Assembly (NCBI GenBank): GCA_017450705.1
Contig: JAFSTC010000054.1
Location: forward strand, 1-64,000
Reading direction: 5' to 3'
DNA from: Lentisphaeria bacterium
GTDB lineage: Bacteria > Verrucomicrobiota > Lentisphaeria > Victivallales > Victivallaceae
DNA: 64,000 nt
Shown: piece after piece, positions 4,684 through 59,748 of the stretch
Numbering within the stretch: position 1 is the first letter of the stretch
Layout: each line of letters begins with the position of its first letter
Translations under genes and position numbers: made by a program
The notes under the pieces: generated by a model
Database searches by the model: none
What the model saw: the letters and a program-made list of their open reading frames with translations, nothing else
Told to the model about the DNA's origin: nothing

Positions 4684-5715
4684 GTGAAAAAAAACTGTTC
4701 TGCGGCCCTGGACGGCCGGCCCTTCAGCCGGCTGGGGGAAGGCTCTTTCACCGTGGGCGAACTGCTGCGGGAGAATCCTCCCGAGTACCGCAACGAGTTC
4801 AAACGGGAGATTTATTCCGAGGCGGCCGTTTTTTTTGCCTCCCGGCAGGCGGATCTTGCGATCGGGTTTTCGCGCAGTACAAGTCTTGAACTGTCGGAGA
4901 TCGCGATCCGGCCCGGAGCGGCGAAAATGCCCGGGATCGTCACTGTTCCGCACTATTTCCGCTACGACGATCCGCCGTCGCAGGAGGAGATGCCCTGGTA
5001 TCTCAACTTCGCCGATCCCTGTCTGTTCTTTGCCTACGACTCGGCTCTCTTCGCCCAGGACGAGATCCAGACCCTCGAACACCCCATGCTCGCCGCCGTC
5101 ATGCTGCGCCTAGAGGGGATGAATGATCCTGGACTGCGCCCGCTGACGGTGGAGAACGGCCGGCCGACGCCGTGGATATTCGAAAATGTCCCCCGCTGGA
5201 TCGGTGTGGATACGCTGCCCGTTGATGAAAACGGCGAAACGAAAAACATTTACGGCAATGCTTTCTGCATTGCCGATCAAGCCCTGCTGCGGCGGGCGAT
5301 CACGATCGGCGGGGATCCCGCCGCATGCAGCAACATCATCGCCATGGCGGCTCCGAGTCCCGGATACGGCCTTTATCAGCCGCACCAGATCCGGCAGCTG
5401 CTGGGCACCGTTCTGGCCGGATTCGCGCCCGCCGTCGAGGCGTCGGCGGGACGGGGACGGGCGGCCGTCATCCATACCGGGAGATGGGGCGCCGGGGCCT
5501 TCGGCGGTTCGGAGGAGCTGGCACTCTGCGTCCAGATCATCGGAGGCATGCTCTCCGGTGTGTCGAAACTCTGTTTCCACGCCGTGTCGGAAGAATTTCT
5601 CGAAAACGCCCGGGAGATCGCCGAAACGGTCGTCGCCGCGTCGGCGGATGCGGAAGAGATTTCGGAAAAACTGCTTGCGATCGGATATGAATGGGGCGTC
5701 AGCGACGGCAACTGA
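4684..5715 (+). CDS. Poly(ADP-ribose) glycohydrolase (PARG)-like protein
   Basis: 343 aa. I chose a GTG start because GAGGAG lies at 4671-4676, 7 nt upstream; an upstream ATG at 4636 in the same frame has no such site. The C-terminal half carries TGRWGAGAFGG (residues 265-275) followed by an amphipathic helix, closely matching the TGNWGCGAFGGD block conserved in PARG enzymes. FAQDEIQTLEHP (QDE at residues 125-127) aligns in position and context with the PARG catalytic loop, normally GGG-x-QEE, so the second, catalytic Glu is kept. The usual GGG run is not visible. PARG enzymes cut the ribose-ribose bond of ADP-ribose polymers. No ADP-ribosyltransferase is nearby; the gene stands alone, convergent with the glycosyltransferase gene 26 bp away. 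Confidence 0.75.
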   Translation: MKKNCSAALDGRPFSRLGEGSFTVGELLRENPPEYRNEFKREIYSEAAVFFASRQADLAIGFSRSTSLELSEIAIRPGAAKMPGIVTVPHYFRYDDPPSQEEMPWYLNFADPCLFFAYDSALFAQDEIQTLEHPMLAAVMLRLEGMNDPGLRPLTVENGRPTPWIFENVPRWIGVDTLPVDENGETKNIYGNAFCIADQALLRRAITIGGDPAACSNIIAMAAPSPGYGLYQPHQIRQLLGTVLAGFAPAVEASAGRGRAAVIHTGRWGAGAFGGSEELALCVQIIGGMLSGVSKLCFHAVSEEFLENAREIAETVVAASADAEEISEKLLAIGYEWGVSDGN

Positions 5716-5741
5716 AGCCGCCGCCGACCTCCCGCGGACTG

Positions 5742-7403
5742 TCATCGGGTACGGTGAAAGCGGGTCGGCCCCTTCTTTTTCTCCAGCAGGGCGCACGCCC
5801 TTCGGCCGATCCGGCCCCGGGCAAGGACCGTCCAGTCGGATTCGGCCTGATTCCATTTGTCCAGGCGGGCGACGACAAGTGTCCCTGCCGCAAGCGAAGA
5901 CACATTCCCGCGGGAGACATACCGGGGAATGAATATGCGTGACCGCGAAACGTGGATCATGTATTTGTTTTCGTCCCCGTCCCGCCCGAGGGCGTAGAAG
6001 AAGAGGGGCCTGCTGCCTCTGATCTTTTCGCAGTGCAAGGTGAAGGCGCGCGAACTCAACGTCGCTGCCTCGATCGGTTCGAGGAGCATGATGCGGCAGA
6101 AAACCACAAGTCCCGCGGCTGCGGCAAGCAGAGCAAGCCGACTGTACCGTCCGAAGCGCCCCGAGAAGAGGGTCAGCAGAAAGATGAGGACGAGAACGAC
6201 TGTTCCCGGCAGGAGCGGGAGACGGATGACGCTTCCCGTTTTCTGCACGACGGCGGGGTGGAGCAAAACGAGCTGGAGCCCGATGAACAGAGGCACGGCC
6301 AGCGCCGCCAAGATCCGGGTCAGGATGAAGAACAGCTTCCGGATCTTTCTCAGCAGAGGGAGCTTTGCCGGGTTCCAGACGAGATGGGCGGCGATCAGCG
6401 CGGCGGCCGGGATCAGCGGGGCGATGTAGCGCAGATGTTTGGTTCCGGGAATGCTGAAGCCCGCGACGATCACGGACAGCCATGCCGCACAGTCGGCGAA
6501 AGGCCGCAGGGAACTTGCCGTCAGAAGCTTCCTTTTGAAGACGACCGCGTAGACGGCGATGATGCCCAGCGCCGCAGGATAGGCAAACGCGTAAGAGCCG
6601 ACGGCATTCGTGAAGTAATACCACGGCGGTTTGCCCTTGCTCATGCGGCCGGTGATCTGCATGTCGAGGCATTTCCGCAGCAGCTCCTCTCCGCCGAACC
6701 TGAAGATGATCCACCCCCACAGGGCCAGCAGAAAGATCAGCAGGAGTCCCGAACAGAGGGCAAAACGGATCAGCAGGGCGTATCGGCGTTCTACAAGCAA
6801 AGTCGCGCATACCGCGGCGGCCGGAACGACAAGCCCGATGGGACCCCGGGCGATATACCCCGCGGCCAGAAACAGCAAACTCCAGTAGACGCGCCGCTCG
6901 TGGTGCTCATGAATGGCGGTCCAGGTGAGATAAAAGGCACATATCGTCGCCAGCGCCGGATAAAGATCGACGCTGGCGATCCGGCAGATGCCGACGAATT
7001 CGAAGGCGCAGAACATCAGGAGAACGGCTGCCGCGGCGATCCTTGCGCCGAACAGCCGGACGCCCGTTTTCCATGTCATCACGATCAGAAAGGCTCCCGC
7101 GAGGGCGGAGGGAAGGATCAGGGAAAAATAGTCCACTTTCCCCGTGAGTTCGGCCGCTCCGAGCGAGAGCAGGGTCGAAAAGCCGGTGTAATCGGGGTAG
7201 GGCTCACCGTAAAGCGTCGGCCAGAAAAGCATCCCCGTCTCCCTCATCTCGTGGACGAAAAGGGCGAAACGGGTGTCGATCATCAGAAACTCGCTGCGCA
7301 TCCTCACGGTGAAGACGGTCAGCGCTCCGAAGAAGATCAGCCACGGAACGGACCGGGCGATCCGGTCTCCCATCCGTGTCGAAAATGCCGGGAGTGTCCT
7401 CAT
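5742..7403 (-). CDS. ArnT/GT39-like integral membrane glycosyltransferase
   Basis: 553 aa with about 11-12 hydrophobic helices. The N-terminal MIDTRFALFVHEMRETG has the acidic first-loop motif of polyprenyl-phosphate-sugar transferases. RGPIGLVVPAAAV and KPPWYYF match blocks of the ArnT / dolichyl-phosphate-mannose transferase family. Such proteins transfer a sugar from a lipid-phosphate donor to lipid A or another acceptor on the outer face of the inner membrane; the acceptor here is unknown. No clear ribosome-binding site precedes the ATG at 7403. The gene lies just past the tsf terminator, so its own promoter is unclear. The end of the protein is more charged and soluble. Confidence 0.8.
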   Translation of the reverse strand: MRTLPAFSTRMGDRIARSVPWLIFFGALTVFTVRMRSEFLMIDTRFALFVHEMRETGMLFWPTLYGEPYPDYTGFSTLLSLGAAELTGKVDYFSLILPSALAGAFLIVMTWKTGVRLFGARIAAAAVLLMFCAFEFVGICRIASVDLYPALATICAFYLTWTAIHEHHERRVYWSLLFLAAGYIARGPIGLVVPAAAVCATLLVERRYALLIRFALCSGLLLIFLLALWGWIIFRFGGEELLRKCLDMQITGRMSKGKPPWYYFTNAVGSYAFAYPAALGIIAVYAVVFKRKLLTASSLRPFADCAAWLSVIVAGFSIPGTKHLRYIAPLIPAAALIAAHLVWNPAKLPLLRKIRKLFFILTRILAALAVPLFIGLQLVLLHPAVVQKTGSVIRLPLLPGTVVLVLIFLLTLFSGRFGRYSRLALLAAAAGLVVFCRIMLLEPIEAATLSSRAFTLHCEKIRGSRPLFFYALGRDGDENKYMIHVSRSRIFIPRYVSRGNVSSLAAGTLVVARLDKWNQAESDWTVLARGRIGRRACALLEKKKGPTRFHRTR

Positions 7404-7430
7404 GTTTTTCTGGATTTTTTTTGCCGGTTG

Positions 7431-7466
7431 AAAAAACGGAGCAAAACGGCGAACCGTTCTGCTCCG
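7431..7466 (-). terminator. Rho-independent terminator after tsf
   Basis: On the minus strand a 13-bp stem with one mismatch (CGGAGCAGAACGG paired with CCGTTTTGCTCCG) closes a TTCG tetraloop and is followed by six T (7436-7431). It lies 25 bp past the tsf stop. Confidence 0.9.
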
Positions 7467-7490
7467 CGAAAAGACAAGGGTAGGAAACCG

Positions 7491-8300
7491 TCAGAGTTCC
7501 TCGCCGATGGCCCAGCGGGCGAAGCGTTTGATCTTCACTTCGGGGTGAAGCTTCGCCAGTGTGGTCTTGTCGTCGCGGACCCAGGGCTGGTTGACGAGAC
7601 AAACCTCGGAGAAGAAGCGGTTGATCTTGCCCGCGAGGATCTTCTCCAGCATCTGGGGCGGCTTGTTGGCCAGCTTGGGATCTGCGGCGGCCGCGATCTC
7701 TTTTTCCTTGGCGATCACTTCGGCCGGAACGTCGGAGGAAGCGATGTACCTGGGACTGAAGGCGGCGATGTGCAGACAGATGTCATTGAGCAGTTCGGCG
7801 TCGTTCGTTCCCTCGACTTCGACCAGCACGCTCACGCGGCCGTCCATGTGGTGGTAGCCTGCGAACTTGCTGGCGCCGCTGCCGAGCCATTTGACGGCGC
7901 GGCGGAGCTGCATGTTTTCGCCGATGGTGGCGATGTGGCTGGTGAGATTTGCGGCCACGGCGGTATTGGCGGCGGAAGTGACGTCACCTTCGCCCTCGAG
8001 CTTGAGAACGTCCGCGACGCACTGGGCCACCAGAGCTCCGAACTTCGGCGTCTTGGCGGCGAAATCGGTTTCGCAGAGCAGTTCGATGATGGCGGCCTTG
8101 TTTCCCTCGATGCCGGTCCAGACCTTGCCCTGATTGGTGGAGCGTCCGGCCTTTTTCTCGGCCTTGGCGATACCGGATTTGCGCAGATTTTCAATGGCGG
8201 CGTCCATATCGCCGTCGGCGGCGGTAAGGGCCTTTTTGCAATCCATCATACCGGCTCCGGTCTTCTCCCGGAGTTCCTGAACCATTTTAGCAGTGATCAT
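7491..8300 (-). CDS. tsf: Translation elongation factor Ts
   Basis: 269 aa, the usual length. EF-Ts is the guanine-nucleotide exchange factor of EF-Tu. The N-terminal UBA-like module (VQELREKTGAGMMDCKKALTAADGD) and the LLCETDFAAKT motif, which contacts the EF-Tu nucleotide site, are both present. The start is ATG at 8300 with GGAG about 10 nt upstream. It follows rpsB by 36 bp, the arrangement found in most bacteria, and ends at a strong terminator. Confidence 0.98.
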   Translation of the reverse strand: MITAKMVQELREKTGAGMMDCKKALTAADGDMDAAIENLRKSGIAKAEKKAGRSTNQGKVWTGIEGNKAAIIELLCETDFAAKTPKFGALVAQCVADVLKLEGEGDVTSAANTAVAANLTSHIATIGENMQLRRAVKWLGSGASKFAGYHHMDGRVSVLVEVEGTNDAELLNDICLHIAAFSPRYIASSDVPAEVIAKEKEIAAAADPKLANKPPQMLEKILAGKINRFFSEVCLVNQPWVRDDKTTLAKLHPEVKIKRFARWAIGEEL

Positions 8301-56366: not shown

Positions 56367-58478
56367 TCACCTGTTCAGACACTCGATGATCTTCTGCTGG
56401 ACGCTGCGGTAGTAGAGGTGGCCCAGATGGCCCCCGCGGGAGGTCCAGATGATGCGCTCTCCCAGGACCCGGTCCAGAAATTTCCTGTCCTGTTCCGAAA
56501 GGAGAAAATCGTTGATCGAATGGATGACGCAGATGTCCTGACGGTTCCTGAGCGTCCGTTCCAGGCTGTGGAGATCGGATTTTTCGAACAGCGTTTTTTT
56601 CGGAACGCCGGGGTATTCGTTCGCCAGGTATTTTTCGGCGTACTCGGTGAAGGATATCCTGTCCAGCTCCAGGTACAGTTTGTTTTTGGAGAAGTTCACG
56701 GGCGCGTCAAGAGAAATGAGTCCCCTGTCGCGGTGGGCCGCAAACAGCATGCCGCGCACGGACGATCTGAAATAAAGTCCTGCGAGAAAGTCCGCCGTTA
56801 CGGGATCCCCGGTCATCCTGTAGGCGAACTTGACGTTCTCCGGAAGGCTTGCGGCGTAGGGCGGCAGGACCGCCGAGAAACCGTTGACGATGGCTCCCGC
56901 CGCGCCGAGAAGCCGATCGAGCACCTCGTCGGGAGATTTTTCCGCCATGGAGTCGGCGAGGCGGTCCGCCTGCCGCGCGGCGTATTGCAGACTCACCGGA
57001 GGGTTGACGGCCAGATAATTCCGGATGCCGAGGCGCTCGTCCCTTTTCTCCAGCTCCGCGATCTTGAGCGTATGCATGCCGCCGAAACTGTAGCCCACGA
57101 GGGACAGCTCGGGCGCGGAGATGAGTTTTGCCTCCTTCAGGTCGTTCAGAGCCAGAAGGATGATCTTCCGCACGGCGTCCGCGTCGGCTGGCAGGAATCC
57201 CGGCAGGCGGCTGCCGGAACGGGCGCTGACGAACTGCCATGTGAAGGTGCTGTCGATCACCAGCACGGCAAAACCGTTCCCGTTGAGCAGTTCCGCCAAA
57301 GCGAGCGCCGTCGAGGAAAGGGCGGTCCCGCCGATGCCGGGCAGCAGGACGGCCAGCCGTTCCGGGGGCGGCGGGAGCGGTTTCCCCTCCCGGTCCTTGC
57401 CGGGAACGGGACTTGGCCAGAACGAGCAGACGAATTTGGGCCGGTCCGGGGCCAGCGCAAGTTTGCGCTTATACCGTTTCCCGGAGAAATCGCTGTTGAA
57501 CACCGAAAGACGCATATACCAGAAATCGTCGTCGGTCTGCGCTCTGAAGAGAACGGTCCGCAGGGAATCCAGCACGGGGGTCCCCGGACCGTATTCAGGA
57601 AGATCCAGCCACCGGCCCTGAAGGTCCGGAGGGGGCGCGACGCGGGGGGAGGGCTGGAGCGGCGGCGGGTAGTGTCCCTCCTCGGTGAGCTGATCGATCC
57701 GGTACCGGTAGCGGTAGGTCCACATGCGCAGTTTGAGTTCGCGACCCAGGAGGGCCAGCTGGCGGAAGGTCTTGTAGCGGTCGTTGCTGCCCTCCACGAC
57801 CTGCTGATAGGCGCGGTGGGCGATGACCATCCGGTTGAGCGCCGTGGCCCAGCCGGAATAGGGGATGTAGGTCTTGAGATCGAAGGCGATGTCGAAGAGC
57901 AGGCCGACCGTGTCCCTGACGTTCAGCGTGGGCGAGCCGGGCAGCATGAAGGTGCACCCCGGACCGATCCCCCAGGCGGCGAAGGCCTGCCCGAAATCGG
58001 AATCCGTGGAGTGGATCCGCCACCAGTGTTCCGCCGGATCGAAAAATCCCGCGATACCCACCGTGATGTTGAGCAGAAAACGCAATGTTTCCCGCCCCGC
58101 GCCCTTCCACTCCGCCCGGATGAGACAGCTGACCGCCCGGGCCGGAAACTCCAGATTGACGCAGAGGTTGTTGAAGTGCTCGATGAAAGGGCGCGGAAAG
58201 ATGGTGGTGTAGATCCTCCCGAGGGGATCGGCCAGATAGTCCATGAGAACGGATGTTACTGCGAACATGCTGCGGTTGAAGGGTTCGCAGGGATCCGGCC
58301 CGGCCAGGTGGTTCTCCAGTACGGAGAGGGTGATTTTTTCCCGCGGAGGCGGTTTTGTCTGCTGCGTGTTTTCGCCGGGCGGCGGCGTTTCCTGTGCGGT
58401 CCCGCAGCTTTGGCAGCCGGAAAAAAGACAAAGTCCGGCCAGAAACAGGAACAGCAGAAAGATGTGCCGCCTTTTCAC
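56367..58478 (-). CDS. MlaA/VacJ-like lipoprotein fused to an alpha/beta hydrolase
   Basis: 703 aa from a GTG start at 58478, with GGAG 7 nt upstream. The signal peptide has a lipobox FSGC (Cys22), so it is a lipoprotein. Residues ~60-270 match MlaA/VacJ, the outer-membrane component of retrograde phospholipid transport (DPCEPFNRSMFAVTSVLMDYLADPLGRIY, FFDPAEHWWRIHSTDSDFGQAFAAWGIGPG, RDTVGLLFD). Residues ~370-700 look like an alpha/beta hydrolase (AVLLPGIGGTALSS, VGYSFGG with Ser464, an Asp in HSINDFLL, a His in SRGGHLGHLYY). Standard MlaA is about 250 aa, so this is a fusion. A lipase or phospholipase acting on lipids handled by the MlaA part is a reasonable inference. It begins 4 bp after aroA. 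Confidence 0.85.
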   Translation of the reverse strand: MKRRHIFLLFLFLAGLCLFSGCQSCGTAQETPPPGENTQQTKPPPREKITLSVLENHLAGPDPCEPFNRSMFAVTSVLMDYLADPLGRIYTTIFPRPFIEHFNNLCVNLEFPARAVSCLIRAEWKGAGRETLRFLLNITVGIAGFFDPAEHWWRIHSTDSDFGQAFAAWGIGPGCTFMLPGSPTLNVRDTVGLLFDIAFDLKTYIPYSGWATALNRMVIAHRAYQQVVEGSNDRYKTFRQLALLGRELKLRMWTYRYRYRIDQLTEEGHYPPPLQPSPRVAPPPDLQGRWLDLPEYGPGTPVLDSLRTVLFRAQTDDDFWYMRLSVFNSDFSGKRYKRKLALAPDRPKFVCSFWPSPVPGKDREGKPLPPPPERLAVLLPGIGGTALSSTALALAELLNGNGFAVLVIDSTFTWQFVSARSGSRLPGFLPADADAVRKIILLALNDLKEAKLISAPELSLVGYSFGGMHTLKIAELEKRDERLGIRNYLAVNPPVSLQYAARQADRLADSMAEKSPDEVLDRLLGAAGAIVNGFSAVLPPYAASLPENVKFAYRMTGDPVTADFLAGLYFRSSVRGMLFAAHRDRGLISLDAPVNFSKNKLYLELDRISFTEYAEKYLANEYPGVPKKTLFEKSDLHSLERTLRNRQDICVIHSINDFLLSEQDRKFLDRVLGERIIWTSRGGHLGHLYYRSVQQKIIECLNR

Positions 58479-58482
58479 TTTT

Positions 58483-59748
58483 CTACTCCAGCGTAAAATC
58501 GGCTCCGAGCGCGGAAAAATCGTCGAAGAACCGTGGGTAGGAGACGCCGGCGCATGCTGCGTCGTCGATCTCCACGGGGCCTTCCGCCGCAAGTCCCGCC
58601 ACGGCGAAGGCCATGGCGATGCGGTGGTCGCCGTGACTGGAGACCCGTCCGCCCCGGACGCGGCCACCGTGGACGACGAGTCCGTCGGGCAGCTCCTCCG
58701 CCGCGATGCCGAGTTTCGGCAGTTCCTGCGCCATGACGGAAATGCGGTCGGTCTCCTTGATCCGGGCCTGGGGCACGTTGAGCAGCCGGGTCGTCCCCGA
58801 GGCGAAAGCGCCGGCGACGGCCAGAATGGGCAGCGCGTCCGGGGTGGCGTTGAGATCCAGATCACACCCCGCAAGGCGTGCCCCGGGCAAAACGGTGAGG
58901 ACTTTGCCCCGTTCCAGACGGGCGCCCAGCTGTTCCGCAAAGCCGAAGACCGCCTTGTCCCCCTGAGGATCCGAGAAATCCAGATTTTTGATGGCGACGC
59001 CGCGGCCTGAAATCATGCCGGCGACGAGGGGAAAGGACGCGGTGGAAAAGTCAGCGGGGATGGTCCTGTCGAAGGGCGCTATTTTCTGCCGCCCCGGGAT
59101 CTCCCAGCGGAGCAGATCCTCCGAATGCCGGTATTCGAGGCCGAGGGCGTCCATCCAGCTGGTTGTGATGCCGACATAGGGCTGTTCGTTGAGAAACTCC
59201 AGCGTGACGACCGACTCTCGCTGCGCCAGCGGCAGGGAGAGCAGAAGCGCGCTCAGGAACTGGGAACTGCTGCCGTCCGCCGTGACCGTGCCGCCCGTTA
59301 CGGGACCGCGCAGGGAGAAGGGGCATTTGCCCGTGGGGGCGTCGATGTGCGCGCCAAGTTTGGCAAAGGAGTCCAGCAGCGTGGCCATCTTGCGGGTCCG
59401 CAAAGAGGAGTCCCCGTCGAAGGAGATGGTGAAGTCCTGGAGCGCGCACATGCCTGAGAGCAGGCGCAGACCCGTGCCGGAGTTCTTCATATCGATGACC
59501 CGCCCGGGATCGGTGAATCTGCCGCCGGTCCCGGTGATCTCCCACGAGTCCGCGCATCGTGTGACGCGGGCGCCCAGCAGCATGGCGGCGTCGAGCGTGG
59601 CCAGCGTGTCGGCGGATCCCAGCGGCGCGCGCAGAACGCTCGTCCCCGTCCCCGCGAGGGCGGTGACGATGCCCCGGATGGTGTGCGATTTGGAACCGCT
59701 GACGGCGATCTCCCCCCTCAGCACGGAGGGTCTCACGGTAAGTTTCAT
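58483..59748 (-). CDS. aroA: 3-phosphoshikimate 1-carboxyvinyltransferase (EPSP synthase)
   Basis: 421 aa, normal length. It joins shikimate-3-phosphate and PEP in the aromatic amino-acid pathway. Blocks: GEIAVSGSKSHTIRGIVTALAGTGTSVLRAPLGSADT, KNSGTGLRLLSGMCAL, DGSSSQFLSALLLSLPLA, LAVAGAFASGTTRLLNVPQARIKETDRISVMAQELPKLG, SHGDHRIAMAFAVAGL. It follows the prephenate dehydrogenase gene by 37 bp; together they form an aromatic-biosynthesis operon that runs on into the MlaA-hydrolase gene. Confidence 0.97.
   Translation of the reverse strand: MKLTVRPSVLRGEIAVSGSKSHTIRGIVTALAGTGTSVLRAPLGSADTLATLDAAMLLGARVTRCADSWEITGTGGRFTDPGRVIDMKNSGTGLRLLSGMCALQDFTISFDGDSSLRTRKMATLLDSFAKLGAHIDAPTGKCPFSLRGPVTGGTVTADGSSSQFLSALLLSLPLAQRESVVTLEFLNEQPYVGITTSWMDALGLEYRHSEDLLRWEIPGRQKIAPFDRTIPADFSTASFPLVAGMISGRGVAIKNLDFSDPQGDKAVFGFAEQLGARLERGKVLTVLPGARLAGCDLDLNATPDALPILAVAGAFASGTTRLLNVPQARIKETDRISVMAQELPKLGIAAEELPDGLVVHGGRVRGGRVSSHGDHRIAMAFAVAGLAAEGPVEIDDAACAGVSYPRFFDDFSALGADFTLE

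Follow-up and report, generated by a model that had tools for sequence, protein, structure and literature searches.

What does a bacterium do with a strayed phospholipid when its MlaA-type extractor and a serine hydrolase are made as one lipoprotein? The question is raised by a gene in the window, by which we mean the whole 64,000-nucleotide stretch of a Lentisphaeria bacterium contig analysed here. Reading of its open frames gives a single 703-residue lipoprotein, encoded on the minus strand at 56367-58478 without an internal stop, and the original prediction that both domains sit in this one chain proved right in coordinates and in parts. In addition to the Pfam family PF04333 (E 1.8e-40), the MlaA domain matches the NCBIfam MlaA model (E 8e-16), and a phmmer search brings up solved MlaA structures; the features are collected in Table 1. 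The two halves have nearly the same codon composition (GC3 0.81 vs 0.79). A GGAG shortly precedes the GTG start, which itself lies 4 nt past the aroA stop codon, and aroA also adjoins the fusion gene in two related loci (L001, L002), having not been found there in three others (L003-L005).

Table 1. Features of the fusion gene and its upstream neighbour, in window coordinates.
Feature	Coordinates	Strand	Evidence
Whole gene: 703-aa lipoprotein, MlaA (MlaZ-type) with fused MlaY-type lipase	56367..58478	-	GTG start at 58478, stop ends at 56367; architecture shared with 48 other loci
Signal peptide and lipobox LFSG-C22, predicted lipidated Cys22	58413..58478	-	Sequence inspection; similar lipoboxes in 32/48 fused homologues (strict pattern)
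MlaA/VacJ domain, residues 62-243	57750..58295	-	PF04333 E 1.8e-40; matches solved MlaA chains 5nuq, 8i8r, 5nuo
End of MlaA C-terminal helices and proline-rich linker, residues 244-288	57615..57749	-	Between the two profile matches; partly variable in alignment
MlaY-type serine alpha/beta hydrolase domain, residues 289-703 (start about 290)	56370..57614	-	Family profile; P. aeruginosa MlaY homology, blastp E 1e-21, HMM E 1e-71
Ser464 codon, predicted catalytic nucleophile (GYSFGG), equivalent to MlaY S187	57087..57089	-	Ser in 34/34; alignment to MlaY
Asp657 codon, predicted catalytic acid, equivalent to MlaY D388	56508..56510	-	Asp in 32/32; alignment to MlaY
His684 codon, predicted catalytic histidine (GGHLG), equivalent to MlaY H415	56427..56429	-	His in 32/32; alignment to MlaY
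aroA (EPSP synthase), directly upstream, 4 nt gap, context only	58483..59748	-	PF00275 E 3e-94

General profiles place the second half among the alpha/beta hydrolases rather loosely. The Pfam hydrolase models match it weakly, Abhydrolase_6 covering residues 377-618 with an E of 1.8e-4 for the whole protein and 9.9e-6, just above the cut-off, for the domain alone, and its best PDB profile match is hornet venom phospholipase A1 (E 3.6e-4). AlphaFold models built on a six-sequence input have low confidence (mean pLDDT 36 for the full protein and 48 for the lipase domain), and a Foldseek search with the latter model returned mainly alpha/beta serine hydrolases in weak alignments, which lends mild support. 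In an alignment of 34 sequences Ser464 is invariant (34/34), as are Asp657 and His684 in all 32 sequences that reach that far, together with a loop glycine, 381, and Asp432. A triad missing from relatives, which the original prediction had named as evidence against itself, is thus not what the family displays, and the domain would be expected to act as a lipase.

The closest described counterpart lies outside the phylum. Among the plasmid-collection records that our search beyond the phylum covered, tblastn found the MlaA and lipase halves as neighbouring genes in Skermanella rosea, S. mucosa and Fusobacterium vincentii, the Skermanella order being lipase, MlaA and then TamB. The lipases of Skermanella and Fusobacterium in turn led to a Pseudomonas aeruginosa pair that lies beside genes for a pirin, a patatin-like phospholipase, a lauroyl acyltransferase and minCDE, and from this neighbourhood, which agrees with the gene order of PAO1, we take the pair to be PA3238-PA3239. 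According to papers that cite the original work, PA3238 is MlaY and PA3239 is MlaZ, an MlaA homologue, and MlaZ has been proposed to extract misplaced glycerophospholipids from the outer leaflet for degradation by MlaY (PMC11131202, PMC12569750, PMC10925693); this two-protein MlaYZ system of Pseudomonas goes back to Guest et al. 2023, as cited in PMC11131202, PMC12569750, PMC11977310 and PMC10925693. PMC11977310 gives the catalytic triad of MlaY as Ser187, Asp388 and His415, and reports that MlaY, described as the degrading lipase, rescues an E. coli pldA mutant together with MlaZ. PMC12569750 adds that CtpA activity in P. aeruginosa is affected when mlaY and mlaZ are co-overexpressed and by neither singly.

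In the plasmid-borne P. aeruginosa protein these published positions are occupied by Ser, Asp and His, which confirms its identity as MlaY, and in the alignment, from which one row in a wrong reading frame (L111) was left out, they fall exactly on Ser464, Asp657 and His684 of the window protein. The lipase family profile finds MlaY with an E of 1e-71 and direct blastp with an E of 1e-21, at an identity of about 24% over 343 residues. Given this homology and the aligned triad, the window protein is, as judged from its sequence, a single-chain MlaZ-MlaY. The idea in the original prediction that lipid taken up by MlaA may be degraded on the spot is supported, and its remark that no enzyme of this kind had been described turns out to be wrong at the level of mechanism, since P. 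aeruginosa MlaZ/MlaY (PA3239/PA3238) has been proposed as a two-protein version of it.

The records outside the phylum deserve a few remarks of their own. On the Skermanella plasmids (L119, L120, 1030-12078) the pair is part of an operon-like run of an RND efflux adaptor and permease, a hypothetical protein, the MlaY-like lipase, the MlaZ-like VacJ protein and TamB, a run that joins a lipase, an extractor and a member of a phospholipid-transport family. The pair from the Fusobacteriota (L121, NZ_CP084075.1, Fusobacterium vincentii, 5707-7780) is on a 2.1 Mb record labelled as a plasmid, whose size suggests a chromosome. Three P. aeruginosa plasmid records (L122, L123, L124) carry what appears to be the chromosomal mlaYZ region, with minC and minD in two of them, as excised or duplicated chromosome segments or as products of assembly; the lipase of L124 is unannotated, matches in two pieces and may be disrupted.

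Let us consider, then, how such a chain might work. The lipoprotein would be exported and anchored in the outer membrane, where its MlaA domain, seated in the inner leaflet, would provide a route to its periplasmic opening for phospholipids misplaced in the outer, lipid A leaflet. There the tethered MlaY-type lipase, placed on the MlaC docking side, would cut their acyl esters with Ser464, Asp657 and His684, releasing a lysolipid or a glycerophosphodiester together with fatty acid into the periplasm, and no lipid would be handed to MlaC for return to the inner membrane. We consider it quite probable that the fusion protein operates in this manner, as a single-chain MlaZ-MlaY whose MlaA domain extracts and whose lipase cuts what would otherwise be passed to MlaC. 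Our own analysis contributes the architecture, the MlaY homology, the conserved triad, the genomic linkage and the absence of MlaC; the function of MlaA, the MlaC docking site and the MlaYZ proposal come from the literature, and phospholipase activity, extraction by the MlaA domain and handover to the lipase are what we infer from the two together.

The hydrolase might instead be an acyltransferase that passes an acyl chain from the extracted phospholipid to another acceptor, such as lipid A, a lipoprotein or another lipid, a reaction of the type catalysed by PagP, whose fold is different. Acyl transfer to acceptors other than water is indeed within the reach of alpha/beta hydrolases that have a Ser-Asp-His triad. 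We nevertheless think this improbable, as no acceptor-specific feature was found in the hydrolase, and its closest characterised relative, MlaY, is described as the degrading lipase that with MlaZ rescues the E. coli pldA mutant (PMC11977310).

If the single-chain MlaZ-MlaY destroys its lipid, one may ask what has become of the return path. The C-terminal helices and tail of MlaA are where MlaC binds in E. coli (PMC10719372), and the lipase of the fusion protein is attached on this same C-terminal side. MlaC was found in 49 of the 388 genomes of the phylum; among the 153 that carry MlaA, the lipase is present in 105 and MlaC in 46, and the two sets overlap in one genome only, G206. This genome has two MlaA genes, the first next to MlaC (at 1,962,574 and 1,963,232), the second joined to the lipase (at 2,986,607). 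Fisher's test gives p 6e-34 for the exclusion with shared ancestry ignored, so that the exclusion at the level of the locus, together with G206, is the safer measure of it. The two arrangements of G206 span C1:1962574-1963828 (plain MlaA with MlaC) and 2986607-2988331 (fusion). Closer to the window, MlaC (PF05494) was found neither in its genome nor in those of 59 of 60 close relatives, with E. coli and Caulobacter as positive controls. The order of the window has one member, G046, in which an MlaA gene adjoins MlaC with no lipase (G046:C222:2683-3880; L006, L038); contamination in this assembly is 6%, and the contig is possibly foreign. Two further genomes, G295 and G311, have MlaA and gave neither lipase nor MlaC in the profile searches of the 388 genomes. 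A survey of Mla proteins across bacteria places MlaABC mostly in Proteobacteria (PMC10665443), and a text search of this survey and of a review of MlaA found no mention of a hydrolase or a fusion.

As for the other partner genes on which the original prediction asked for a check (mlaB-F), MlaD and MlaE are present, the genome of the window having two loci with one of each, and it was MlaC that was missing. Another lipid route may therefore exist in this bacterium. One could imagine that the lipase trims phospholipids to lysolipids, which are detergent-like and need removal, and that another carrier passes these on to MlaDEF-type transporters, which bring them to the inner membrane. The two MlaD/MlaE loci would suit such a retrograde feed, but with MlaC absent from all but one of the 60 relatives we give it little credence, all the more so because MlaD, MlaE and every other MCE protein went undetected in 13 relatives that do have MlaA, fused to the lipase wherever its locus was read. 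An MCE transporter is thus not a required partner of the single-chain MlaZ-MlaY. These 13 belong to a set of 14 relatives that lack both MlaD and MlaE, and five of them are at least 90% complete (G010, G015, G017, G021, G038). The opposite case, MlaD/MlaE without an MlaA that we could find, occurs in eight relatives (G003, G006, G009, G027, G032, G035, G037, G039), several of them being 92-97% complete, so the MlaA-lipase system appears dispensable there. From the genomes without MlaDE and those without MlaA we conclude that the MlaA-lipase system and the MlaDE transporter are inherited independently, and that lipase and MlaC are the alternatives.

Twelve of the MCE-less genomes with MlaA fall in one genus (G001, G004, G008, G010, G015, G017, G019, G021, G022, G026, G029, G033), the thirteenth being G038; other members of that genus have MlaD and MlaE, and a natural loss of every MCE transporter is possible. 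Lipid A is probably made in most of these bacteria, since LpxC, taken as the marker because the LptD profile is too insensitive (8/60), is encoded in 55 of the 60 relatives, including 10 of the 13 without MCE proteins; the remaining three of the 13 are 54-71% complete. Seven genomes (G042, G046, G049, G051, G054, G056, G059) have a divergent LpxC with a frame of about 350 aa and an E of about 1e-26 to 1e-34, compared with about 1e-80 to 1e-92 in the other relatives, which suggests a second LpxC type within one order.

How firmly are the two halves tied to each other? An architecture search among relatives had been suggested in the original prediction. Of the 388 genomes of the phylum, 153 have MlaA, 107 have a member of the lipase family (a count that leaves out two weak matches) and 105 have both. 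In the 60 loci that were read, the window included, 49 have the fusion and 11 have adjacent genes. In every genome whose coordinates were compared (95 of 95), MlaA is immediately followed, on its own strand, by the lipase, the gap from one domain match to the next being 25-382 bp, which rules out chance juxtaposition. The apparent exceptions are cut by contig ends, namely a lipase without MlaA in G399 and an MlaA without lipase in G292 and in G043/L025; a further apparent exception, G393, is a match of 39 positions. In the split loci the lipase again follows MlaA on the same strand, the starts overlapping or lying within a few tens of bases, and begins with an apparent secretion signal of its own. 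A strict lipobox pattern is found in 32 of 48 fused proteins vs none of 11 split MlaAs, and by this pattern outer-membrane anchoring may have been gained with the fusion or lost in the split form.

This tie bears on the notion that the MlaA part is a mere outer-membrane anchor for a hydrolase acting on other esters, such as dietary lipids or acyl groups of the envelope. Its weak Pfam and fold similarity does reach cutinases, esterases and lipases in general, and rumen and colon, the sources of the relatives L001 and L002, are ester-rich sites. Anchoring of a lipoprotein, however, needs no MlaA domain, and the one at hand is well conserved, is a separate adjacent gene in 11 loci, forms with the lipase a pair that excludes MlaC, and has in the homologous P. 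aeruginosa pair a counterpart tied to phospholipid removal (PMC11131202, PMC12569750), all of which makes a mere anchor very unlikely. A frameshift or assembly error joining two genes, the objection that the original prediction raised against itself, can be dismissed: the halves are separate and sometimes overlapping genes in some relatives, but the same fused gene is present in 48 other loci, drawn from dozens of independent assemblies (the single-contig G036, G128 and G184 among them), with both halves conserved.

Trees of the MlaA domain place the window's order in one lipase-linked clade, in which the split pairs branch outside the fused ones; this is consistent with the fusion in this order having arisen from neighbouring genes. 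Fusions from other families of the class, along with a few genomes from other classes, make up a second clade, and a third group comprises the MlaZ proteins of P. aeruginosa, Skermanella and Fusobacterium. Placing all lipase-linked MlaAs in one clade is rejected only marginally (p-AU 0.044), and one or several origins are therefore both compatible with the trees. Since P. aeruginosa MlaZ stands apart in the trees from the MlaA domains of the window's clade, the partnership may have formed more than once.

Should the single-chain MlaZ-MlaY work as we suppose, the findings invite a wider reading, which we hold to be slightly less likely than not: throughout a class of diderm bacteria, the Mla pathway would have been turned from recycling to destruction, with a covalent phospholipase taking the docking place of MlaC, the MCE transporter lost in part of one genus, and a single protein left there as maybe the sole dedicated guard of the outer leaflet. 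What appears to be new is the covalent fusion, its class-wide spread, its near-perfect exclusion or replacement of MlaC, and the genomes in which no MCE transporter was found. Gene fusion and adjacency imply physical coupling, and so bring support from independent genomes to the proposal that lipid is handed directly from MlaZ to MlaY. They also extend the range of MlaYZ from Pseudomonas to a large clade, Fusobacterium and Skermanella. Whether degradation alone can keep outer-membrane asymmetry, with no return of phospholipids, becomes testable through the MlaC exclusion and the MCE-less genomes, and the handover could be studied structurally on the single-chain version, which is a simple target.

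Lastly, the system may be set against those already known. General alpha/beta hydrolases (Abhydrolase_6, cutinases, carboxylesterases, hornet venom phospholipase A1) have the fold class and the triad in common with it; the similarity is weak, however, and the MlaY family has conserved motifs of its own and a different gene context. PldA (OMPLA) of E. coli, to which the original prediction likened the protein, has the same proposed task, the degradation of phospholipids misplaced in the outer leaflet, and as a functional analogy the comparison stands. Kinship does not: PldA, a beta-barrel that works in the outer leaflet, has nothing in common with the fused lipase in fold or sequence, and a relationship is ruled out by the Pfam scan, which gave no match of the fusion protein to PLA1 (outer-membrane phospholipase A, PF02253), and by the absence of this family from all 60 relatives' genomes. 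With the canonical E. coli pathway, MlaA-MlaC-MlaFEDB, the window system has in common the MlaA domain, the outer-membrane location and the proposed removal of outer-leaflet phospholipids; it differs in having no MlaC and a lipase at the MlaC docking side, so that the lipid would be destroyed, not returned. Nearest of all is P. aeruginosa MlaZ/MlaY, in which an MlaA-family protein again goes together with a homologous Ser-Asp-His lipase, the two genes being adjacent and MlaC having no part in the pair. P. aeruginosa keeps the full canonical Mla pathway as well, whereas the window's clade does without MlaC and some of its genomes without an MCE transporter; and where MlaYZ is two proteins with the lipase gene first, an order found also in Skermanella and Fusobacterium, the window has one chain with MlaA in front.
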